Shown here: piece after piece, positions 18,543 to 48,739 of the stretch
How positions within the stretch are numbered: the stretch's first letter is position 1
Layout: every line of letters starts with the position of its first letter
Assembly: GCF_003610915.1 (NCBI RefSeq)
Contig: NZ_NSDJ01000001.1
Span: forward strand, 3,100,001-3,164,000
Origin: Rahnella variigena
GTDB lineage: Bacteria; Pseudomonadota; Gammaproteobacteria; Enterobacterales; Enterobacteriaceae
Reading direction: 5' to 3'
DNA length: 64,000 bases
Translations under genes and position numbers: made by a program
Notes under the pieces: model-generated
Seen by the model: only the letters and a program-made list of their open reading frames with translations
Databases searched by the model: none
What the model was told of the DNA's origin: nothing

Positions 18543-18564
18543 CCCGGCGCTGACAAGCGCCGGG
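18543..18564 (+). terminator. Hairpin after the VOC gene
   Basis: Eight-pair GC-rich stem cccggcgc/gcgccggg with loop tgacaa; no T-run follows, so termination is uncertain. Confidence 0.5.
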
Positions 18565-18715
18565 TAGCGTTGCAGTGGATTGCGATCCTGCTTCCAACTT
18601 TATAATTTAATGTTTTTTTTGCCACTCCTCTTTTGTTTATGGCCTTCACGCAAAGGTTCACGGTCATCTCTCTCCTTAGACTCCTCCTCAACGTGTTATC
18701 AGCTGAGGAAAAACT

Positions 18716-20149
18716 ATGCGCAATTCACGACCGCTTAACGCAGCCTTATTCGGGATAGGGCTTAATACGTACTGGCCACAATTCACCGGTCTGGAAGCAC
18801 GGCTGACAGGCTATCTCGGGCAAATCGAGCAGCAACTTACTTCGCCGGAGATCCTCATTCATAACGGCGGGCTGGTCGACAGTGTGGAAAAAAGCGACAC
18901 GCTTGCCGCTGAACTGAAACAGGTTTCTCCGGACGTCATTATTATCGCCATCAGCACTTACGCTCTGAGTTCAACAGTGTTACCGCTGGTGCAGCAATTT
19001 CAGGTTCCGGTGCTGATCCTGGCTCTTCAGCCTGAACGTCATCTTCCGTATCAGGTTATCAGTGAAATGACCGATCGCGGGGCACGGACCGGTGAATGGC
19101 TGGCACATTGCCAGGCATGCAGCGCGCCGGAACTGGCCAATGTGTTTAACCGTGCGGGCATTGCATACGAGATGATTGTCGGCGCGCTGAATAATGACCC
19201 GTATGTCTGGCAGCAAACACAGCAATGGCTGACCGCGATTGGCGTAAAAATCCGGCTGGGCAAAAGTACGGTGGGAGTACTGGGGCATTATTACAACGGC
19301 ATGGTGGATGTGTATTCCAACATGACCAATCTTTCAGCCAAATTAGGTGTCCGCTTTAAACCCCTCGAGATGTGCGAGCTGAACAGTTTGCGTGAGCAGG
19401 TCAGTGATGCGCAACGTGAGGCTAAACAGAAGGAAGTCGGGAGAAGTCTCCGCACAGATACCAGTTGCGATAAAGCCGAGCTCGAAAGGGCAGTGACGAC
19501 CGCCGTCGCGCTTGAGCAACTGGTTGATAATAACGGGCTGGATGCACTGGCCTATTATTATGAAGGGGCGCCGGGCAATGCTTACGAGAACATCGTGACG
19601 TCGGTGATCCTCGGCAATACGCTGCTGACGGGGCGCAATATTCCCGTTGCTGGTGAATATGAAATCAAGAATGTTATCGCCATGAAAATCATGTCGCTGC
19701 TCGGAGCGGGGGGATCGTTCTCTGAACCTTATGGCATTGATTTTGATGATGATGTTGTGCTTTGGGGACACGACGGGCCAGCTCATCCGCTGATGGCAGA
19801 AGGTGAAGTGCGTCTGGTGCCGTTACCTGTCTATCACGGCAAACCGGGGAAGGGCATTTCTATTCAGATGAGCGTGCGTAAAGGCCCGGTAACGTTCCTT
19901 TCTGTCATCGAAGACATCAATAACCGTGTGATTTTACAATATGCCGAAGGGGAGTCGGTCGAAGGAGAAATCCTGGATATCGGGAATACTAACAGCCGTT
20001 ACCGTTTCCCATTGTCAGCGCGGGAATTTACGAAAGACTGGTCATGCGGAGGAGCAGCACATCATTGCGCGATAGGGATCGGACATCAGGGCGAAACAAT
20101 TGAAAAACTGGCGACGTTACTGGGCGTGGTAACACAGAGGATTTGTTGA
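18716..20149 (+). CDS. Sugar isomerase-like protein of the AraA/FucI superfamily
   Basis: 477 residues. N-terminal Rossmann-like half contains '[18 protein letters not shown]' and '[14 protein letters not shown]'. The C-terminal half has the arabinose/fucose isomerase-type blocks '[20 protein letters not shown]', '[18 protein letters not shown]' and '[25 protein letters not shown]', ending in '[10 protein letters not shown]', which supply the expected acidic and histidine metal ligands. It is not araA itself and no kinase, epimerase or transporter accompanies it, so the substrate is unknown. It reads towards the Ter site at 20168-20190 and converges on the GAPDH gene. Family call is from recalled motifs. 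Confidence 0.65.
19847..19854 (+). other. KOPS octamer pointing towards dif (left arm)
   Basis: gggaaggg fits GGGNAGGG, the FtsK-orienting sequence, on the plus strand to the left of dif as expected. Confidence 0.5.
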
Positions 20150-20167
20150 AACATTAACAGGAATAGG

Positions 20168-20190
20168 TATTTTAGTTACAACATACAATA
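20168..20190 (-). other. Ter site, minus orientation (Ter-left)
   Basis: On the minus strand the site reads GTATGTTGTAACTAAAA (20186 down to 20170), identical over 16 bases to the core of E. coli TerB, including the G whose partner C is flipped in the locked Tus-Ter complex. In this orientation the blocking face looks to the right, so leftward-moving forks would be stopped. Confidence 0.92.
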
Positions 20191-20225
20191 TATTGCTTTT
20201 AATAACGGTGCCCGCCTGTTAGCCA

Positions 20226-20252
20226 TAAAAAAACACCGCCATACGGCGGTGT
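20226..20252 (-). terminator. Terminator of the GAPDH gene
   Basis: Perfect 8-pair stem acaccgcc/ggcggtgt with loop atac (20233-20252); on the minus strand it is followed by seven T residues. Confidence 0.85.
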
Positions 20253-20282
20253 CTGTCATTGTTCTTACAGGAAAAGAGGGAA

Positions 20283-21293
20283 TTATAGACCCCGTTCTTC
20301 CATCAAAAGAGCCAAATCGACCAGACGGTTTGAGAAGCCCCATTCGTTATCATACCAGGCGAGGATCTTCACCAGTTTGCCGCCAATCACCAGCGTAGAA
20401 AGCCCGTCGACGATAGAAGAGCGCGGGTCGCCGCGATAATCGCTGGAAACCAAAGGTTCTTCGCTGTACCCCAGAATTCCTTTCAGAGGGCCAGATTCAG
20501 CCGCCTTACGGAATGCTGCGTTGATTTCCTCAACAGTGGCTTCACGTTTCAGATTGACCGTCAAATCAACGATGGAAACTACAGGGACCGGCACACGCAG
20601 TGAATAACCGGTCATACGGCCATCCAGTTCAGGAATGACTTTACCGATAGCTTTTGCCGCGCCGCTGGAATAAGGAACAATAGATACGGCCGCCGCACGG
20701 GCGCCGCGCAAATCTTTTTCCGGCTGGTCATGCAATGCCTGACTGTTGGTATAGGCATGTGTGGTATTCATCAGGCCATGTTCAATGCCGAATGTCTGAT
20801 GCAAAACTTGCGCCGCAGGAGCCAGGCCATTAGTGGTACAGCTACCGTTACTGACAACTTTATGTTTGGCCGGGTCATACTGACCATCGTTTACACCCAT
20901 CACAATCGTGATGTCATCATTTTTGGCCGGTGCGGAAATGATGACGCGTTTAGCACCACCTTGGGTGATGTGAACTTCCGCTTTTTCTTTTTCAGTGAAG
21001 AAACCGGTGGCCTCAATGACGATGTCAACGCCCACACTGCTCCATGGAATAGCCGCAGGATCTCTTTCAGAAAATACGCGGACAGTTTTGCCATCAACCA
21101 GCAACTGACCTTCGTCAGCTTTTACGTCTGCCTGTAAGGTACCGGAGAGAGAATCATATTTGAGAAGGTGAGCGAGGGTTTTGCTGTCAGTCAGGTCGTT
21201 TATGGCGACAACCTGAAAATCATTGCGACCGAGCGCAGCACGCAATACGTTACGTCCAATCCTGCCGAATCCGTTAATACCAACTTTGACCAT
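20283..21293 (-). CDS. Type I glyceraldehyde-3-phosphate dehydrogenase
   Basis: 336-residue NAD-dependent GAPDH catalysing the phosphorylating oxidation of glyceraldehyde 3-phosphate. Motifs: 'KVGINGFGRIGRNVLRAAL', Asp33 (NAD preference), catalytic Cys152 and His179 ('TTHAYTNSQ'). The active-site block reads SNGSCTTNGLAP instead of the usual SNASCTTNCLAP, so Ala and the second Cys are both Gly. This suggests a paralogue or alternative GAPDH, not the main glycolytic gapA. AAGGAG precedes the ATG at 21293. It follows a GlxA-type regulator in the same direction by 78 bp, so the regulator may control it or be co-transcribed with it. Confidence 0.9.
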   Translation of the reverse strand: MVKVGINGFGRIGRNVLRAALGRNDFQVVAINDLTDSKTLAHLLKYDSLSGTLQADVKADEGQLLVDGKTVRVFSERDPAAIPWSSVGVDIVIEATGFFTEKEKAEVHITQGGAKRVIISAPAKNDDITIVMGVNDGQYDPAKHKVVSNGSCTTNGLAPAAQVLHQTFGIEHGLMNTTHAYTNSQALHDQPEKDLRGARAAAVSIVPYSSGAAKAIGKVIPELDGRMTGYSLRVPVPVVSIVDLTVNLKREATVEEINAAFRKAAESGPLKGILGYSEEPLVSSDYRGDPRSSIVDGLSTLVIGGKLVKILAWYDNEWGFSNRLVDLALLMEERGL

Positions 21294-21371
21294 GATGAAC
21301 TCCTTAGTTATCTGACTTAGGGTTAATCTAATCTGAAGAAGGGATGGCGTAAATGACAACAATAGATCTAT

Positions 21372-22349
21372 TTACGCCAACACGCGTGAGCAAAAACGTT
21401 CTCTGTATTCTGTAGGAGTCAGTTGTAAGTTTCTCTCAAAGACACGACGCAGATTAAGGCCGCCACCAAATCCCGTTGTGAGTGCAATTTGCTCTACGCC
21501 TTGTGTGGTTTGTTCAAGAAGCTGTCTTGCAGCATTGAGGCGAACTTCTTCGACATACTTCGCCGGTGTGATACCGGTTTCACGAGTGAATACCCGCGTA
21601 AAATTACGCGGACTCATTGCCACGCGCCCGGCCAGTCCTTCAACAGATAAATCGCCGGTAAGATTTTCAGGCAACCAGGCCTGAAGCTCGCGGATAGGGC
21701 CATCGCTGGCCTGATTCAAAAGATAGCGGCTATATTGCGCTTGTCCACCAGGCCGGCGGAGAAACATCACCAGATTTTGTGCGACGTTTATGGCAACGCT
21801 GAAGCCGTGATCATCCTCTACCAGAGCCAGGGTGAGATCGAAACCTGAACTGACACCGCCGGATGTCCAGATTTCACCGTCCTGAACGTACATCGGTCCG
21901 CGTTCGACTTTTACCTGCGGAAATTTCGCCTGCAGGGTATCAAGCAGCCGCCAGTGTGTGGTGGCATGACGGCCATTGAGCAGGCCAGCATGAGCCAGCA
22001 ACATAGCACCGCCACAAATTGACACCACACGCCGCGCGTGGGGTGCCGCGTTTTTCAGCCAGTTAACAACGCTTGAGCTTTCTTCTTCAGTCAGACCTTT
22101 GCCGGTGATAATAATCGTGTCACGGGGTTCTGTCGGATCGAGATCACACAGCCGGTGGTCGGCCAGCAGGTTCAGACCTGAAATACCATGAACGACACGG
22201 TGCGATTGCGTGGTAGCCACGGCGACCTGATAAGGCGAACTTTGGGGATTACCGGGCAGCAGCTGATTGGCCTGCATCAGGATATCGACGATGCCTGCCG
22301 CTTCAAATAACATGCCACCGTCAGGAACGATAACCAGAATGGTTGTCAT
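21372..22349 (-). CDS. GlxA-family AraC-type regulator with DJ-1/PfpI domain
   Basis: 325 residues from the ATG at 22349 (an ATG at 22370 is equally in frame; neither has a strong ribosome-binding site). The N-terminal DJ-1/PfpI-like domain (about 1-170) includes 'VPDGGMLFEAAGIVDIL' and 'RRVVSICGGAMLLAHAG', where the Cys sits at the nucleophile elbow. The C-terminal AraC/XylS DNA-binding domain has two helix-turn-helices: 'VEGLAGRVAMSPRNFTRVF' and 'VEQIALTTGFGGGLNLRRVF'. Members act as transcription activators responding to metabolites. It sits directly upstream of the GAPDH gene and divergent from emtA. Confidence 0.87.
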   Translation of the reverse strand: MTTILVIVPDGGMLFEAAGIVDILMQANQLLPGNPQSSPYQVAVATTQSHRVVHGISGLNLLADHRLCDLDPTEPRDTIIITGKGLTEEESSSVVNWLKNAAPHARRVVSICGGAMLLAHAGLLNGRHATTHWRLLDTLQAKFPQVKVERGPMYVQDGEIWTSGGVSSGFDLTLALVEDDHGFSVAINVAQNLVMFLRRPGGQAQYSRYLLNQASDGPIRELQAWLPENLTGDLSVEGLAGRVAMSPRNFTRVFTRETGITPAKYVEEVRLNAARQLLEQTTQGVEQIALTTGFGGGLNLRRVFERNLQLTPTEYRERFCSRVLA

Positions 22350-22567
22350 GGCGTTAAATATACCTTTCATACAAAATGAGTCAGATTTGAGTTTAGCAAA
22401 TAACAACGTTTTACGGCAGTTAAAAGCGAAAGCAGGGTGCAGATACCAATTCTTCCATGTCTGTCACAGGTTTTCGGGTAAAAAAAAACAGATTTATGCA
22501 TGATCCTGAGGGATGATATCGGTATCTTGTCAGCGTTGAGACTCACTTATTTAAACCGTGGAAATTC

Positions 22568-23173
22568 ATGATTTCTCTACTAAAAAAACCTTTCAGACTC
22601 AGTATGATTATCATGCTGATGATTTTGGCTGGCTGCTCGAGTAAGCCGAAATATAAGAAATACGATACGCATGCCTATGATGATGAAATTGAAGATGCTG
22701 CTGACCAATATAAGGTCGACAGAAAACTCGTTAAGGCTATCATCCAGGTCGAATCAGGTTTTAATCCCGAAGCCGTAAGTCGTTCAAATGCCATTGGTTT
22801 GATGCAACTTAAAGCATCAACCAGTGGCTGTGATGCTTATCGCTATAAAGGCAAACGCGGCTGCCCTGATGACGATGATTTGCTGGATCCGGAAACCAAC
22901 ATTGACCTCGGAACCGCATACATCAGCGCATTGCAGCGTCAGCAACTAAACTGGATCAACGATCCGCTGACACGCCGTTATGCAACCGAAGTGGCTTATG
23001 CAAATGGTGCGGGCGCATTATTGCGAACATTCTCTGCTAATCGCCAGACCGCGATTCAGATGATCAATCAGCTGACACCCGAAGCGTTTAACTGGCATGT
23101 CCGGCAGTATCATCCGGCGCCTCAGGCACCGAGATACATGGCCAAAGTCGAGAAGGCTTATGCAGGTTTATAG
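22568..23173 (+). CDS. emtA: Membrane-bound lytic murein transglycosylase E
   Basis: 201-residue outer-membrane lipoprotein that cleaves the glycan strands of peptidoglycan endolytically. Signal peptide with lipobox 'LAGC' (lipidated Cys23); the transglycosylase SLT fold begins near residue 40, with catalytic Glu62 in 'IIQVESGFNP', the 'AIGLMQLKAST' motif and 'VAYANGAGAL'. Length and sequence match E. coli EmtA (MltE), including 'CDAYRYKGKRGCP'. Divergent from the GlxA-type regulator. A long imperfect hairpin follows at 23199-23255. Confidence 0.93.
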   Translation: MISLLKKPFRLSMIIMLMILAGCSSKPKYKKYDTHAYDDEIEDAADQYKVDRKLVKAIIQVESGFNPEAVSRSNAIGLMQLKASTSGCDAYRYKGKRGCPDDDDLLDPETNIDLGTAYISALQRQQLNWINDPLTRRYATEVAYANGAGALLRTFSANRQTAIQMINQLTPEAFNWHVRQYHPAPQAPRYMAKVEKAYAGL

Positions 23174-23198
23174 CATTTAGACATGCTGAAAATGGGTA

Positions 23199-23255
23199 CG
23201 CTACGTGAAATCTGCAGGATTAGGGTACTGATCTAATTCCAGAAATCACGTAGCG
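23199..23255. repeat. Long imperfect hairpin downstream of emtA
   Basis: Outer arms cgctacgtga (23199-23208) and tcacgtagcg (23246-23255) are perfect complements, and inner ggattag/ctaattcc arms add further pairs with a short bulge. No T-run follows. It could be a terminator-like structure, a small RNA hairpin or an operator. Confidence 0.5.
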
Positions 23256-23301
23256 CGATCAGTTCAAAGTGCGATTTCTGATGTCAAAAAGTGGAAATGA
23301 G

Positions 23302-23661
23302 ATGGTGACGAATCTGTTTAAGGATTTTCCTGTAAATGCACAGGAGGGAAATGAAGAAACGTTCGAGTCATTATTGATGAAGCCAGATATGCGTATCGAG
23401 AGAATTATTTCAACTGGTCAGGCGAGTCCACCGGGATTCTGGTACAGCCAGCCGCAAAGTGAATGGGTTACAGTGCTTCAGGGCTCGGCAGGTTTAAAAT
23501 TTGAAAACGAGAAGGAAGTGCGCGTGATGAATGCCGGTGACTTCGTAAATATCCCGGCGTTGTGCAGACATCGTGTGGAATGGACAAGTACTGAAGAGCC
23601 AACGGTTTGGTTAGCCATTTATTATGCTGAAGAAACCCAGGACAAAGCAGGTGAGGTATGA
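23302..23661 (+). CDS. Small cupin-domain protein
   Basis: 119 residues from the ATG at 23302, with GGA 8 bases upstream; ATG 23281 and GTG 23269 are in-frame alternatives. A single cupin barrel is seen: 'GFWYSQPQSEWVTVLQGSAGL' (motif 1, Gln/Glu-bearing in place of the His pair) and 'AGDFVNIPALCRHRVEWTS' (motif 2). Metal ligands look incomplete, with His in 'CRHRVEW' as the clearest. It is the last gene before dif and is read towards it. Role unknown. Confidence 0.7.
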   Translation: MVTNLFKDFPVNAQEGNEETFESLLMKPDMRIERIISTGQASPPGFWYSQPQSEWVTVLQGSAGLKFENEKEVRVMNAGDFVNIPALCRHRVEWTSTEEPTVWLAIYYAEETQDKAGEV

Positions 23662-23703
23662 ACGGCGTTGGATATCGAGGTGCTGGTACGTAGCTGATAT
23701 CTC

Positions 23704-23731
23704 ATTTAACATAATATACATTATGCGCACC
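23704..23731 (-). other. dif: dif chromosome dimer resolution site
   Basis: All 28 bases are the reverse complement of the recalled E. coli dif sequence. On the plus strand the XerD arm (atttaacataa) is 23704-23714, the 6-base centre 23715-23720, and the XerC arm (ttatgcgcacc) 23721-23731. XerCD recombine here under FtsK control at cell division. The site lies 3.5 kb from Ter-left and 4.1 kb from Ter-right. Confidence 0.96.
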
Positions 23732-23736
23732 TAATC

Positions 23737-25269
23737 TGTAAGTCCCATTTGATAATGTCACTTTTTAGCTAGTTTATAATGTCACCCAGATACGGCGCAT
23801 TTTCCACCTTTCTGGGAGATCTCTTCTGATGCTGGTAACCATGTCCAATAAAGAACTTCACCGCTTGCCGGTGATCCAGGCCGTTGTTGAAAAGCGTCTG
23901 CGTCGCCGTGATGCCGCCTCTCAGCTGGATCTCACTGAACGTCAGGTACAGCGTCTGATGAACCGCTTCCGGGAGTCCGGTGCTGCCGGGCTGACGAACA
24001 CTCGTCGCGGTATGCCCGGAACTCATCACATTGATATTGCACTGCGTCATCGGATACTGACGCTGCTACGTGAAAATTACGTCGGTTTCGGGCCCACACT
24101 TGCCGCAGAAAAGCTTCAGGAGCGCCATGGGATTTCCGTTTCTGTCGAGACGTTGCGCTGCTGGATGACTGCCGACGGTCTCTGGGTGCCGCATGCCCAT
24201 CGGCGACCGCGAGTTTATCAGCCCCGTTATCGACGCGACTGTTTGGGTGAACTCATTCAAATCGACGGTTCACACCACGACTGGTTTGAAGGACGTGCCT
24301 CCAAGTGCTGCCTGTTGGTTTACATCGATGATGCCACCGGTCGCCTGATGCATCTGCGGTTTTGTCAGAGCGAATCAACCTTCGACTACATGCTGGCAAC
24401 GCGCGAGTACATGGATAAACACGGCAAGCCGGTGGCCTTTTACAGCGACAAGCATGCTGTGTTCAGAGTCAGCCAGGCTGAGACTCGTCGGACCGGCATG
24501 ACTCAGTTCGGACGTGCGTTGCATGATCTCAATATTGAACTGATATGTGCTAACAGCAGCCAGGCTAAGGGGCGCGTCGAGCGTGCCAACCTGACCCTGC
24601 AGGATCGGCTGATTAAGGAGATGCGGCTGGAAAACATCAGTGGCATTGACGCGGCCAATGCGTGGCTGGACGTTTTTATTCGCGACTTTAATTGTCGATT
24701 CGCCAGACCCGCAACCTACCCGAAAGACCTCCATCGACCCGTCAGCGAGAACCGCTCAGAGCTGGATGATATTTTTGCCTGGCAGACGCTGCGCACGCTC
24801 TCAAAATCGTTGACCTTTCAATATGATAAGATGCTTTATCTTGTTGAACCCTCGGAGGAAAATGCGCATATTGCGGGTGAGAAAATCCTGGCTTTTGACT
24901 ATCCGGACGGCACGCTGGCGTTCCGCTATGGCAACAGAACGCTGAAGTATCAGGTATTCGACAAGCTGGCCTGTATCGACCAGGGCCGCATTGTGGACAA
25001 TAAGCGACTGGGGGCAGTTCTGAAATTGGCGCAGGAAAAGCAGGACGAACTCGAGACAGCGGGGAAAAGAAATCGCAGCCAACATATGCCTAAAAGGCGT
25101 GCTCAGGTTCAGGAACAACTGAGGGCAATGAACCCGGTACTTGCCGACCCGACCCTGTTCAAACCTAGTCTGAAAAGATGACCTGACTGCCCTTTTCTCT
25201 TCAGAATTTGGATAAAAAGTGACATTCAAAAATGGGAAATCAGGGTGACATTTCAAACTGGGATAGACA
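23737..25269 (+). mobile_element. ISNCY/IS1202-type insertion sequence beside dif
   Basis: 1533 bp with imperfect terminal inverted repeats: left TGTAAGTCCCATTTGATAAT and right (complement) TGTCTATCCCAGTTTGAAAT, each continuing with GTCAC. The 'aatgtcac' octamer occurs twice near each end (23754, 23779; complement at 25219, 25245), probably transposase-binding sites. Flanks are taatc (23732-23736) and aaatc (25270-25274), a 5-bp duplication with one mismatch. The left end is exactly 5 bp from the XerC arm of dif. One full-length transposase gene occupies it. Confidence 0.88.
23829..25181 (+). CDS. ISNCY-family (IS1202-like) DDE transposase
   Basis: 450-residue, apparently intact transposase. 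N-terminal helix-turn-helix region 'RRRDAASQLDLTERQVQRLMNRF' (about 25-50), a second DNA-binding module with 'GFGPTLAAEKLQERHGISVS', then the catalytic rve-type core: Asp in 'ELIQIDGSHHDWFEG', Asp in 'PVAFYSDKHAVF', Glu in 'AKGRVERANLTLQDR'. GGGAG lies 10 bases before the ATG; ATG 23841 is an alternative. No frameshift or internal stop is seen, so the element may be active. Confidence 0.92.
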   Translation: MLVTMSNKELHRLPVIQAVVEKRLRRRDAASQLDLTERQVQRLMNRFRESGAAGLTNTRRGMPGTHHIDIALRHRILTLLRENYVGFGPTLAAEKLQERHGISVSVETLRCWMTADGLWVPHAHRRPRVYQPRYRRDCLGELIQIDGSHHDWFEGRASKCCLLVYIDDATGRLMHLRFCQSESTFDYMLATREYMDKHGKPVAFYSDKHAVFRVSQAETRRTGMTQFGRALHDLNIELICANSSQAKGRVERANLTLQDRLIKEMRLENISGIDAANAWLDVFIRDFNCRFARPATYPKDLHRPVSENRSELDDIFAWQTLRTLSKSLTFQYDKMLYLVEPSEENAHIAGEKILAFDYPDGTLAFRYGNRTLKYQVFDKLACIDQGRIVDNKRLGAVLKLAQEKQDELETAGKRNRSQHMPKRRAQVQEQLRAMNPVLADPTLFKPSLKR

Positions 25270-25328
25270 AAATCGCGGATTATACGATCCTTGATTAAAC
25301 GGCATTACCGATACCTTTCAGACTCACA

Positions 25329-25359
25329 CGGTATCCGGAAGTTCTTGCCCCGGATACCG
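25329..25359. repeat. Ten-pair hairpin near the IS right flank
   Basis: cggtatccgg (25329-25338) and ccggataccg (25350-25359) are perfect complements around an 11-base loop. No T-run on either side; it lies between the IS and the VOC remnant. Confidence 0.5.
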
Positions 25360-25381
25360 CTCAACTCAATTGCTTGCGGAT

Positions 25382-25462
25382 CTACTCACGGATAATCTGA
25401 CCGACGTCTATGCGGTTGCCATCGGGATCAGCAAAAACAAAAGCACGGATACCGTACTTTCC
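25382..25462 (-). pseudogene. C-terminal remnant of a VOC-family gene
   Basis: On the minus strand 26 codons read GKYGIRAFVFADPDGNRI, then DVGQIIRE and a stop. This is the metal-binding C-terminal motif of glyoxalase/VOC proteins. A stop codon (25463-25465) precedes it in frame and no start is present, so it is a decayed fragment. It points towards dif and the IS; the rest of the gene is absent on either side. Confidence 0.7.
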
Positions 25463-25468
25463 CTACCC
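25461..25468 (-). other. KOPS octamer pointing towards dif (right arm)
   Basis: ccctaccc is GGGTAGGG on the minus strand, the orientation expected to the right of dif. Confidence 0.5.
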
Positions 25469-25491
25469 CGTAAATCAAGAACGAATACTAC

Positions 25492-25552
25492 GAGCCGTTT
25501 ACAATCTTTATTCGGCTCGTATAATGAGCCGAATAAGATCACTAATCGGCTC
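25492..25552 (+). promoter_or_regulatory. fic promoter with two 27-bp palindromic operators
   Basis: Promoter elements tttaca (25498-25503) and tataat (25520-25525) are 16 bp apart. Four half-sites frame them: gagccg 25492-25497, cggctc 25513-25518, gagccg 25526-25531, cggctc 25547-25552. They form two inverted repeats, each gagccg-N15-cggctc and 27 bp long, one over the -35 box and one just past the -10. The two inner half-sites also form a perfect 9-base palindrome around the -10. This suggests tight repression, possibly by the HTH of the Fic protein itself. Confidence 0.8.
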
Positions 25553-25564
25553 ACAGGACACTAA

Positions 25565-27013
25565 ATGGATAACCGGCAATGGATTTGGCAATCACCCGAG
25601 TGGCCTCAGTTCAACTGGGATGACGATATCATTCAGCCCCAACTGCGTCAGACACGCCTGAAAATAGGTAAACTGGTCGGTAAAGCCGAATCACGGCCCG
25701 GCCATGATGCTGCCGAATATTCTCTCGATGCGATGCTAAGTAATATTCTTTCATCATTCGCTATCGAGAATGAGCGGCTTGATGCTCATTCTGTCCGTTC
25801 ATCGCTGGCCAAACGTCTTGGTCTAACCTGGCATCTTCCTGGAACCACCACAGAACACTCGGAAGGCTTAGCCAAAATGATGATGGATGTTTTCAATCCT
25901 CAGGCGGGTGATCTGACTAAATCCCTTATTTTTCAATGGCATTGCTGGTTATTTCCGGATCCAGCGCCGGCTTTTTTACGACGTGGAGAATGGCGCGGGG
26001 ATGCAACAATGCGTGTCGTATCAGGCCGGACTGGAAAGGAAAAAGTGCATTATCAGGCACCGCCACGCGAACAACTTTGTGCTGAGCTCACCGCTTTTAT
26101 GCAATGGTATAATCAGTCACGCTATCGGGCGGCGCTGGATCCTCTCCTTCGTGCGGGGCTGGCACATTTCTGGTTTATCACACTTCATCCTTTTGAAGAC
26201 GGGAACGGTCGGATTACTCGTGCCCTCACTGATATGGCGTTATTTCAGGCCGACGATCAAAGCGTACGTTTATACGCTGTTTCAGAAGCCATTCTCAATC
26301 ACCGGAAAGATTATTATAACGTGCTGGAGGCCACACAGCGCGGAACGATGGATTTAACGGCCTGGCTCAGCTGGTTTCTTAAAATGCTCGAAACCAGCGT
26401 AGATACTGCGACCAGACGTATCGATCAGACTTTGGCAAAAACGCTTTTCTGGCAAGTGCACCACAACAACGCACTCCCTGCTGAACAAGTTAAGGTGCTG
26501 AATCGTTTGCTGGACGGAGGCAATAACGGATTTGCCGAAGGGATCAGCGCGGGACAGTATCAGAAAGTGGCGAAAGTCAGTAAGGCGACCGCTACCCGTC
26601 ATCTCGCTGATCTGGTCGCCCGGGGCTGTCTGACCAAAACCGCAGCGGGCGGACGCAGCAGCCGTTATATAATCAACAACACCTTTTCCCCTTTTATTGG
26701 AAACTTTATGAAAGACATCACTTTTTATGGCAGATTTGAAGATGATATTCTTGCCGGTCGTAAAACAATCACCCTGCGCGAAGCCAGTGACGCAAATTTT
26801 TCTGCCGGTGATAAGGTGCGAGTCAGCCGTTATGAGGATGACGTATTTTTCTGCAATATCGAGGTAATTTCGGTAACGCCAGTGATGTTCGATGATCTGA
26901 ATGAAAAACATGCCGTGCAGGAAAATATGACACTGGAACAGTTAAAGGATGTCATTAGTGAAATTTATCCGGGCCTGAAAGAGCTGTTTATGATTGAATT
27001 CCGGCTTATCTGA
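25565..27013 (+). CDS. Fic-domain protein fused to HTH and YqfB-like ASCH domain
   Basis: 482 residues. Residues 1-80 are a DUF4172-type N-terminus ('WQSPEWPQFNWDDD') holding a class II inhibitory motif S64-F-A-I-E68-N69. The Fic core bears HPFEDGNGRITR at 208-219, the full AMP-transfer signature with catalytic His208. A winged helix-turn-helix follows near 330-365 ('KVSKATATRHLADLVARG'). From Met382 the chain continues in frame into a 101-residue ASCH domain almost the length of YqfB: 'DDILAGRKTIT' includes Lys400 and Thr403, corresponding to the Lys21/Thr24 reported as catalytic in E. coli N4-acetylcytidine amidohydrolase, and 'EKHAVQENMTL' is kept. An internal ATG at 26708 could also give ASCH alone. 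AGGA lies 7 bases before the ATG. Confidence 0.88.
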   Translation: MDNRQWIWQSPEWPQFNWDDDIIQPQLRQTRLKIGKLVGKAESRPGHDAAEYSLDAMLSNILSSFAIENERLDAHSVRSSLAKRLGLTWHLPGTTTEHSEGLAKMMMDVFNPQAGDLTKSLIFQWHCWLFPDPAPAFLRRGEWRGDATMRVVSGRTGKEKVHYQAPPREQLCAELTAFMQWYNQSRYRAALDPLLRAGLAHFWFITLHPFEDGNGRITRALTDMALFQADDQSVRLYAVSEAILNHRKDYYNVLEATQRGTMDLTAWLSWFLKMLETSVDTATRRIDQTLAKTLFWQVHHNNALPAEQVKVLNRLLDGGNNGFAEGISAGQYQKVAKVSKATATRHLADLVARGCLTKTAAGGRSSRYIINNTFSPFIGNFMKDITFYGRFEDDILAGRKTITLREASDANFSAGDKVRVSRYEDDVFFCNIEVISVTPVMFDDLNEKHAVQENMTLEQLKDVISEIYPGLKELFMIEFRLI

Positions 27014-27032
27014 GGTCATTTCGACACAGCTT

Positions 27033-27072
27033 AAAAGGCGCGCTATGGATCAAATCCGCGCGCCCTTTTCTA
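27033..27072. terminator. Terminator between fic-ASCH and tag
   Basis: aaaaggcgcgc (27033-27043) pairs with gcgcgccctttt (27058-27069) with one bulged C and a 14-base loop; A-run and T-run on the two sides serve both converging genes. Confidence 0.7.
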
Positions 27073-27110
27073 CTTATTCGTTAAGTTTTTTTCATAAAAA
27101 GTTATTAAAA

Positions 27111-27677
27111 TCAGGCTTCTTTCGCCACCTGCGTACGACGAAAACACTCCGGATGGTGAGTGTTGATCAGGCCGGTAGCTTCCAGCCAGGCATACACAAT
27201 TGTTGGTCCCACAAACTTAAAGCCACGCTTTTTGAGATCCTTTGAAATACGCTCGGAAAGCGCATCTTTCGTCGGAACCGGACCCACGTGCTGAATGGCC
27301 TTTCCGCCGATTTGTGCCCAAATCCACTCACCGAAATCAACGCCAGCCTGCTGCATCGCAAGATACGCGCGGGCGTTATTAATGACCGCCGTAATCTTGA
27401 TGCGCGAGCGGATAATATCGGCGTTATTCACCAGCCTTTCGATGTCATCTTCAGTGAATTCAGCCACTTTCTCCGGTTCGAAATGGCTAAATGCCAGCCG
27501 CAATGCATCGCGTTTTTTCAACACAATTCGCCAGGATAATCCGGCCTGAAAACCGTCGAGCATCAGTTTTTCCCAAAGTGCCCGGCTGTCACGTACAGGT
27601 TTCCCCCATTCTTTGTCGTGATACTCAAGCATCATCGGGTCAGTTGTGCCCCACGGACAACGGATAAGGTCAGTCAT
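27111..27677 (-). CDS. tag: DNA-3-methyladenine glycosylase I
   Basis: 188-residue base-excision repair enzyme removing 3-methyladenine from alkylated DNA. N-terminal 'MTDLIRCPWGTTDPMMLEYHDKEWG' (shown by its first 10 residues: zinc Cys in RCPWG) and C-terminal zinc residues His and Cys in 'THHPECFRR' are kept, as are 'FQAGLSWRIVLKKRDALR' and 'FKFVGPTIVYAWLEATG'. The ATG at 27677 has AGGAG 6 bases upstream. Converges on fic-ASCH and is divergent from tus. Confidence 0.95.
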   Translation of the reverse strand: MTDLIRCPWGTTDPMMLEYHDKEWGKPVRDSRALWEKLMLDGFQAGLSWRIVLKKRDALRLAFSHFEPEKVAEFTEDDIERLVNNADIIRSRIKITAVINNARAYLAMQQAGVDFGEWIWAQIGGKAIQHVGPVPTKDALSERISKDLKKRGFKFVGPTIVYAWLEATGLINTHHPECFRRTQVAKEA

Positions 27678-27828
27678 AGCGAACTCCTGCAACGGATACA
27701 TCCTTTATTCTAACCTGACAGGTATCAGGACGTGATAAACTTTGTTCCCGCCCTGCTAAGCGACTAAAACTCCGAAACTGATGATTTCCCTGAAGTTCAT
27801 GTGTGCACGTTTTATCATTATACCCTAC

Positions 27829-27848
27829 ACTGTATGTTGTAACTAACT
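27829..27848 (+). other. Ter site, plus orientation (Ter-right), at the tus promoter
   Basis: GTATGTTGTAACTAA at 27832-27846 is identical to the E. coli TerB core and ends 11 bp before the tus ATG. Its blocking face looks left, so rightward-moving forks would stop here. Overlap with the tus promoter implies that Tus represses its own gene, as known in E. coli. Confidence 0.95.
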
Positions 27849-27857
27849 GGAGGGTTT

Positions 27858-28793
27858 ATGGCGGATTATGATTTAATTGCCCGGATGAACGGTTGTTTTA
27901 ACGAACTGGAACTGGCGTTGCAGGATCTGGGGCATTTCCTGAGTCAGCTGGAATTATTGCAGGCGCGGGTCTTTGCGCTTCCTGAAGTTGTCAAAGGTGA
28001 AGAACATAACCCCGCAGACAAAATCATCGTGACACCCCACACCGGCGAAGCCGCGCAGCAACTGGCGTTACAGCATTTTCAGCGCCTGTTTATCCATCAT
28101 AATAATGAGAATGTCAGCAGTAAATCCGCCGTACGTTTGCCCGGTGTGCTGTGTTATGCCGTTGATCCCGCAGAGCATCAGTCTGCCCTGCTCCTGATTG
28201 AAGAAGTGAACAAGCTGAAAGCCGAACTGGAACATATTGTGACGGTGGAGTCCGGCCTTGCACGCGAACAGCGTTTCGAGTTTGTGCATACACACCTTCG
28301 CGGGCTGATTACGCTCAACGCCTACCGCTCGGTGACGTATCTGACTGACCCGGATTCAGTGCGTTTTGGCTGGGCAAATAAGCACATTATTAAGAATGTC
28401 ACCCGTGATGAAGTGCTGGCACAGCTGGAAAAAAGCCTGAATGCAGGACGTGCCGTTTCGCCTTATACGCGTGAACAATGGATGGAAAATATTAATCGTG
28501 AGATGAGCGATGTGAAACGTCTGCCGGAACACGCTGCGCTGAAATTTAAACGTCCGGTGAAAGTGCAACCTATCGCCCGCGTGTGGTATCGCAACAGCCA
28601 GAAACAGGTTCAACATCCCTGCCCGTTGCCGCTGATTGCTTTATGCCTGCGCTCTCCGATGATGCAGGTGCCGAAGTTAGGTGAACTGCATGATTACGAT
28701 GTCACAACCATTAAGCATAAATACAAGCCGCAGTCACAGCCGCTGAGTCTGCTGATTAAGCGCCTGCATCTGTACACCGACTATCCGCTGTAA
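27858..28793 (+). CDS. tus: Tus, DNA replication terminus site-binding protein
   Basis: 311-residue monomeric protein that binds Ter sites and arrests replication forks from one side. Clear full-length match to E. coli Tus (309 residues), including 'LPGVLCYAVD', 'EHIVTVESGLAREQRFE', 'HLRGLITLNAYRSVTYL', 'VRFGWANKHIIKNVTRDEVL', 'KFKRPVKVQPIARVWY' and 'HKYKPQSQPLSLLIKRLHLY'. The interdomain basic strand region is retained. GGAGGG precedes the ATG. A Ter site sits in its promoter. The order tus-fumC-manA-ydgA follows E. coli, except that fumA is absent here. Confidence 0.97.
   Translation: MADYDLIARMNGCFNELELALQDLGHFLSQLELLQARVFALPEVVKGEEHNPADKIIVTPHTGEAAQQLALQHFQRLFIHHNNENVSSKSAVRLPGVLCYAVDPAEHQSALLLIEEVNKLKAELEHIVTVESGLAREQRFEFVHTHLRGLITLNAYRSVTYLTDPDSVRFGWANKHIIKNVTRDEVLAQLEKSLNAGRAVSPYTREQWMENINREMSDVKRLPEHAALKFKRPVKVQPIARVWYRNSQKQVQHPCPLPLIALCLRSPMMQVPKLGELHDYDVTTIKHKYKPQSQPLSLLIKRLHLYTDYPL
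28617..28624 (-). other. KOPS octamer pointing towards dif (right arm)
   Basis: ccctgccc is GGGCAGGG on the minus strand, consistent with the right arm; it lies inside tus. Confidence 0.45.
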
Positions 28794-48687: not shown

Positions 48688-48739
48688 GGCTTGTACCCCA
48701 CAGGAGACCTGCGGGCAGTATGCTGTCACTGATTACAGC

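Follow-up and report, generated by a model that had tools for sequence, protein, structure and literature searches.

Among the described Tus-Ter systems, the type I fork traps include that of E. tarda with 56 kb, where the skew flips between the sites, and that of D. paradisiaca, given as 18 kb in the main text of PMC8707476. In E. coli, terA and terC are located at 1.34 and 1.61 Mb, about 270 kb apart (PMC10331603). An initial annotation of the present DNA had noted that the innermost pair of E. coli is separated by hundreds of kilobases. Such a wide trap cannot answer whether replication must end near dif, or whether a trap without close backups is sufficient. Neither Tus-Ter in Rahnella nor a Ter pair on a megaplasmid was found in any title or start of an abstract among the literature matches listed.

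The stretch of DNA analysed here, referred to as the window, comprises 64,000 nucleotides of Rahnella variigena. The genome consists of two contigs (C1 and C2) with a total of 5,499,108 b, and the window corresponds to C1:3100001-3164000. In all likelihood the window contains a Tus-dependent type I chromosomal fork trap of 7.7 kb around dif, near the point opposite oriC. The case for this trap rests on the Ter sites, on the tus gene and on conservation within the genus.

Ter sites, dif and tus

A scan of the window with up to 3 mismatches allowed gives two exact GTATGTTGTAACTAA cores, at 20172-20186 (-) and 27832-27846 (+), on opposite sides of dif (Table 1). The third match is a single site with 3 mismatches at 48718, where 0.67 such sites are expected by chance, and no further core is present in the window at fewer than 3 mismatches. 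The chance expectation for an exact 15-mer is about 0.0001 per window. The core is presumably the same as that of the E. coli sites. The 28-bp dif, detected with a query that we take to be the E. coli-type sequence, is the sole match in the genome at up to 2 mismatches and is situated 3.5 kb from the left core and 4.1 kb from the right core. The initial annotation had described two exact opposed cores at these distances from dif and no other core in the window, and this description is correct, the nearest further site being at chance level. The limits it gave for the two Ter sites (20168-20190 and 27829-27848) are displaced by 1-2 bases from the 23-mers.

Table 1. Location of Ter sites, dif-type sites and tus in the window (positions of the window) and on the megaplasmid (positions of C2)
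Feature	Location	Strand	Basis or remark
Left Ter, 23-mer ATATTGTATGTTGTAACTAAAAT	20169..20191	-	Motif scan; 15-bp core invariant across 10 Rahnella genomes
Right Ter, ACACTGTATGTTGTAACTAACTG	27827..27849	+	Motif scan; vicinal to tus
dif (XerCD site)	23704..23731	-	Exact 28-bp match
Trap interval, 7.7 kb	20169..27849	.	Cumulative GC-skew maximum at window position 25125
tus, 311 aa, replication terminator protein	27858..28793	+	TIGR02648, 498.6 bits; PDB 1ecr/2i06 match
C2 Ter-type site	464944	-	One change, outside the core
C2 Ter-type site	652175	+	Genome scan
C2 XerCD-type site	379289		Both arms as in dif; spacer TCATGA, not TGTATA

Both sites have G6 and the A8-A19 core of Ter, and they are opposed around the terminus with the permissive faces outward. 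The G6 end, which constitutes the non-permissive face of Ter (PMC8707476, Figure 1 legend), is directed toward dif at both sites. From these orientations the left Ter is predicted to block leftward forks and to be permissive to rightward forks, and the right Ter to block rightward forks. Because the non-permissive faces are turned toward dif, a fork would be able to enter the interval from either side and unable to leave it at the far side, and the argument on fork polarity in the initial annotation was therefore correct. The left Ter sits between converging gene ends.

The right Ter core ends 11 bp before the ATG and is thus the leader Ter of a full-length tus gene, a feature on which the initial annotation was silent. 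The gene is an intact tus orthologue according to matches with TIGR02648, PF05472 and PDB 1ecr/2i06, and it accounts for the single PF05472 match in the whole genome. Alignment with E. coli Tus shows 59% identity over 307 residues without gaps. Among 22 residues that we assume to be related to DNA binding or the lock, 20 are identical, including F140, H144, I79, K89 and R198, and the other two differ (T136R and R288K). Tus is 99% identical to that of Rahnella ecdela, R. bonaserana and R. woolbedingensis. The gene adjoining tus is fumC, presumably as in E. coli.

Exact Ter cores are present in all 14 Rahnella genomes searched, the source genome included. In ten of them dif and both Ter sites are found on one contig, 5.2-13.2 kb apart, with core-to-core distances of 7.66 kb in the source genome and 7.10, 7.54, 5.24, 6.79, 6.54, 6.54, 7.33, 13.23 and 8.41 kb in the others; tblastn places tus next to the right Ter in eight of the ten. 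Three drafts have a contig end near dif, with the left Ter still about 3.5 kb from dif, and one genome has dif and the plus (right) Ter on the same contig with 2.5 kb between them. When the ten genomes are aligned around the left Ter, the core forms an invariant run of 15 bp, the next longest run being 5 bp, and invariant columns make up 17.5% of the left-flank alignment overall. The aligned genomes were gathered by their exact core, and no genome with a resolved left side was without it.

The trap was also compared in a family sample of 119 genomes representing 118 genera. The exact core was found in 70 of these, dif within one mismatch in 66, and dif with flanking opposed cores on the same contig in 42 (compiled by hand). 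Trap sizes in the 42 resolvable genomes begin with 7.7 kb in the source genome, the smallest, followed by 9.6, 14.3, 18.0, 22.3, 22.4 and 25.0 kb and upward, with a median of 154 kb, where the sizes in the other genomes are upper limits because the exact 14-mer alone was counted. This series places the narrow Rahnella trap at the low end of a continuum. The trap of 9.6 kb belongs to another genus.

Searches for tus gave 250 loci, of which 80 named loci were kept (9 from Rahnella and 71 from other genera). Their flanks were scanned for dif with a flexible spacer, by which the dif of R. rivi was recovered that had been missed with a fixed spacer. A dif was present in the fetched flank of six loci, all of them among the nine from Rahnella. 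Two of the remaining three Rahnella loci have at most 6.4 kb of contig sequence upstream of tus. The third is R. woolbedingensis with no dif within 10 kb upstream of tus, so that either the trap is larger in this species or the draft is misjoined or broken. No dif was found in the fetched flank of any of the 71 non-Rahnella loci, 66 of which had the full 10 kb upstream, and this includes those nearest by Tus identity (Ewingella, Rouxiella, Hafnia psychrotolerans, Serratia sp. M24T3 and Chimaeribacter). The initial annotation had mentioned a proposal that narrow traps of this kind are ancestral; these 71 loci lend it no support and rather speak against an ancestral status of the extreme form. 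In the compared set extreme narrowness looks specific to Rahnella, notwithstanding the 9.6-kb trap of the other genus. The remainder of that earlier reading, a trap for both forks defined by its sites, polarity and narrowness, is retained.

Chromosomal position and proposed use of the sites

C1 has a length of 4,756,373 b, and a segment of 22.8 kb is present at both of its ends with 99.7% identity, which gives a circular chromosome of about 4,733,590 b. Motifs of oriC type and clustering of GATC are found at about C1:744.8-745.3 kb beside mnmG (C1:742849-744696, -). From there the arms to dif are about 2379 kb rightward and about 2355 kb leftward, a difference of about 24 kb. The distance between dif and the midpoint opposite oriC is 11.6-12.1 kb, and forks of equal speed would meet at 3,111.6-3,112.1 kb, which is outside the interval and some 8 kb from the left Ter. 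With C1 taken at full length dif appeared to be exactly opposite oriC (0.2-0.7 kb off), a placement that the overlap of the ends corrects to an offset of about 12 kb.

In the 404 kb around dif, the cumulative GC skew has its maximum at C1:3,125,125, inside the trap, and the ratio of forward to reverse KOPS is 10/3 to the left of dif and 5/19 to the right. The two-mean change point of the skew is at 3,127,000 with a bootstrap 95% range of 3,112,975-3,139,000, and 64% of the replicates are inside the trap; the midpoint opposite oriC falls only just outside this range. The change point is consistent with the position of the trap. Its range exceeds the width of the trap, and skew alone is thus no demonstration of termination within just 7.7 kb; as proof of such a zone it was rejected because the resolution is too coarse.

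In the proposed mechanism, Tus from the gene adjoining the right Ter would bind both sites. The fork arriving first would pass the near Ter on its permissive side and copy dif, and would then be locked at the far Ter, at most 4.1 kb beyond dif, until the second fork arrives. With a lock of this kind, replication would in practically all cycles be completed no farther than about 4 kb from dif. As the arm of the leftward fork is the shorter one, by about 24 kb, this fork would usually be first and the left Ter the more used of the two. Being located in the tus leader, the right Ter probably allows Tus to repress its own gene as well. With a trap that extends about 4 kb from dif on each side and a meeting point about 8 kb outside it, nearly every cycle should make use of a Ter. 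Rahnella would thus be a setting in which a requirement to end at dif could be told apart from a tendency to end opposite oriC.

A different explanation is that the narrow pair is real and rarely used, since the forks meet near dif anyway, and that the Ter at tus is mainly the operator of an autorepressor. The small difference between the arms, only about 24 kb, would agree with rare use, and a leader Ter core within one mismatch at 80 of 80 tus loci (73 exact), regardless of the position of dif, would agree with an operator. However, the left Ter between its converging gene ends is not the operator of any neighbour, and yet its core is invariant in ten genomes. Forks of equal speed would also meet outside the interval, about 8 kb away, so that most leftward forks would run into the left Ter if Tus is bound there, and this explanation is considered unlikely.

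The trap around dif is not the only place with Ter sites on the chromosome. The search of the whole chromosome that the initial annotation had called for gives two more exact 14-mer cores, C1:1754383 (-) and C1:2825477 (-), both on the rightward arm, and one site with 1 mismatch, C1:4601881 (-), in which the core AAC is changed to AAG. In the 404 kb around dif, the 14-mer has no further match at up to 2 mismatches. The two exact cores might suggest that the inner pair is part of a larger set in which outer sites do the work, a role formerly ascribed to redundant Ter clusters in E. coli. That is very improbable, as both are oriented so that the rightward fork from oriC would pass, and only a leftward fork already past the left Ter could be caught by them. 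Judged by orientation they are backups and not earlier barriers, and outer sites that stop forks first, which the initial annotation had named among the findings that could overturn the trap, are on this ground rejected as the working barriers. The other arm has no exact Ter past the right one; C1:4601881 is the only candidate there, its orientation opposes the leftward fork from oriC, and owing to the changed core base it is treated as a probable pseudo-site.

That the Ter pair represents decayed relics or chance matches is scarcely credible when the cores are exact, tus is intact and the arrangement is whole in 10 and partial in 4 of 14 genomes, and a chance origin was rejected in view of the exact cores and the invariant 15-bp run.

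Ter sites on the megaplasmid

C2 is 742,735 b with ends that are identical in sequence over at least 12 kb, corresponding to a circle of about 720.6 kb. This megaplasmid has one exact Ter and one with 1 mismatch (Table 1), and no tus was found on it by PF05472 search of the genome or by tblastn. The site with a TCATGA spacer, exact or with up to 2 changes in the arms, is present in 14 of 14 Rahnella genomes. The replicon that carries it was assigned in a minority of the drafts; in G009 it is chromosomal.

Thirteen plasmid records, chosen by matching DNA beside the C2 Ter sites, were searched: 11 Rahnella megaplasmids of rep_cluster_1067, one further Rahnella plasmid and one Ewingella plasmid. 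A twelfth megaplasmid match, CP034839, which equals one of the searched records in length and match positions, was left out, and so was one Burkholderia match. All 13 records, which share ancestry, have exactly one minus and at least one plus Ter within one mismatch, where about 0.2 per record is expected by chance. A dif-type site is found in nine of the 13, with the TCATGA spacer in seven.

Four replicons (C2, NC_015062, CP034837 and CP042358) were analysed in full and rotated to the rep gene before positions were compared; NC_015062 and CP034837 are identical in Rep and not independent. None of the four encodes Tus according to tblastn. Given in the same order, the KOPS switch is located at 379, 328, 273 and 251 kb, the skew change point at 452, 388, 332 and 304 kb and the minus Ter at 471, 437, 360 and 329 kb. 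The change point thus follows the KOPS switch by 53-73 kb and precedes the minus Ter by 19-49 kb, and in 95-98% of the bootstrap replicates its distance past dif2 or the KOPS switch exceeds 20 kb. The 5-95% bootstrap range takes in the minus Ter in C2 alone and ends before it in the remaining three replicons; from dif2 (or the KOPS switch) to the minus Ter the skew is near zero (0.003, -0.008, 0.005 and 0.011). Both observations count against a sharp stop at the minus Ter. The pattern fits a leftward fork that is often stopped there, not always or not for long, and unequal fork timing alone would also fit.

A tentative interpretation, perhaps somewhat less probable than its alternatives taken together, is that one chromosomal Tus serves barriers on two replicons. 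The chromosome would have a trap of less than 10 kb around dif and the conserved megaplasmid an offset trap of 90-187 kb, whose minus Ter would stop the leftward fork before the dif region of that replicon and thereby shift termination about 50-75 kb past the KOPS switch, in the direction of this Ter. If this is true, the same Tus ties termination to dif on the chromosome and keeps termination off dif on the megaplasmid. The megaplasmid, with Ter and dif apart, would then be a natural counter-case in the same cell.

Comparison with known fork traps

The Rahnella locus is, as judged from its sequence, a type I fork trap in the sense of Toft, extreme in size and conserved in the genus. The innermost Ter is vicinal to tus, and there is no exact Ter between that site and dif. 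The type II order, with another Ter closer to dif on the tus side, is not present. The form with only two Ter sites, which is prototypical for E. tarda and not required of type I, is not matched, as there are two further exact permissive sites. The likeness to the type I traps of PMC8707476 consists of an innermost Ter vicinal to tus, an opposed Ter across dif and a flip of the skew between them. Unlike the type I traps printed there, the Rahnella traps are 5.2-13.2 kb, and the one described here is, with 7.7 kb, less than half of the 18 kb in the main text. Also additional to what is printed for type I in that paper are the Ter pair of the megaplasmid and the two permissive sites farther out on the chromosome.

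The type II trap of E. coli is similar in having an orthologous Tus and tus beside fumC. The difference is that the tus-vicinal TerB is not innermost in E. coli, whereas the tus-vicinal Ter is innermost in Rahnella.

The unexpected part is that Ter sites are spread over two replicons. Sites of dif type and a KOPS bias are already known from large enterobacterial plasmids (PMC11724359), and on large replicons the terminus may be located elsewhere than at dif (PMC13342612); the words Tus and Rahnella are absent from the main texts of both papers. Ter sites have been described on plasmid R1 and tus on a Pseudoalteromonas chromid (PMC10331603; PMC7858055). The Rahnella megaplasmid resembles these, R1 for Ter and Pseudoalteromonas for tus, as an extrachromosomal replicon, in this case with Ter sites. 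In contrast to the chromid as described in PMC7858055, the sole tus of the Rahnella genome is chromosomal, and four megaplasmids with a Ter pair have no tus. The Rahnella megaplasmids also differ from both cases, as these are presented in PMC10331603 and PMC7858055, in their size of 0.5-0.7 Mb and in that some have a dif-type site of their own.

Gene content at the fork trap borders

Gene content among the compared Rahnella changes at the left Ter site. A gene distantly like sugar isomerases lies immediately outside it, and R. bonaserana, R. victoriana, R. laticis and R. inusitata show no alignment to this gene at the corresponding position. Inside the trap, a fused ORF pairs a Fic-like part, which falls below the curated cut-off, with one for N(4)-acetylcytidine aminohydrolase, which exceeds it. 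About 100 bp separates dif from the start of an ISNCY-family transposase gene. The alignment of R. bonaserana (L013) with the window ends exactly at the end of dif, and several Rahnella drafts have contig breaks nearby, for which repeats such as the transposase gene are perhaps responsible.

Features of the trap region, the megaplasmid and the compared genomes (window positions unless a contig is named; C2, megaplasmid contig)
Feature	Position	Strand	Remark
Sugar isomerase-like gene	18716-20149		within stretch 18556-20172; matches far below curated cut-offs
ISNCY-family transposase gene	23829-25181		within stretch 23732-25490
Fused ORF	25565-27013		inside trap
Ter-type site	C2:464944	-	
Ter-type site	C2:652175	+	
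dif-type site	C2:379289		spacer TCATGA
R. rivi dif (G009)	L196:7822		spacer TCATGA; inside chromosomal trap
R. rivi site	G009:C2:49303		
Opposed Ter pair around dif, another genus	G110:C22:293915-303552		9.6 kb apart

Megaplasmid sites and the R. rivi dif region

Rahnella megaplasmids also carry an opposed Ter pair (C2 and plasmid records W01-W13), and no tus was found in the full sequences of four such replicons. In all four fully read megaplasmids, the KOPS switch lies on one side of the skew switch and the minus Ter on the other. The dif-type site with spacer TCATGA is present in C2 and in 7 of the 13 plasmid records searched. Both C2 and the chromosome contig C1 end in an untrimmed circular overlap of roughly 22 kb, and the stated genome size and midpoints computed from it are therefore off.

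In the R. rivi draft the dif within the chromosomal trap carries this megaplasmid-type spacer and adjoins a stretch 81% like megaplasmid DNA located 3.7 kb from the megaplasmid's own dif-type site (dif2), while a separate contig holds a dif with spacer TGTATA. This arrangement suggests an exchange between both dif regions, or an error in the draft.

A narrow trap in another genus

A genome of another genus in the family sample (G110) has an opposed Ter pair 9.6 kb apart around dif, which indicates that very narrow traps have arisen or persisted outside Rahnella too.
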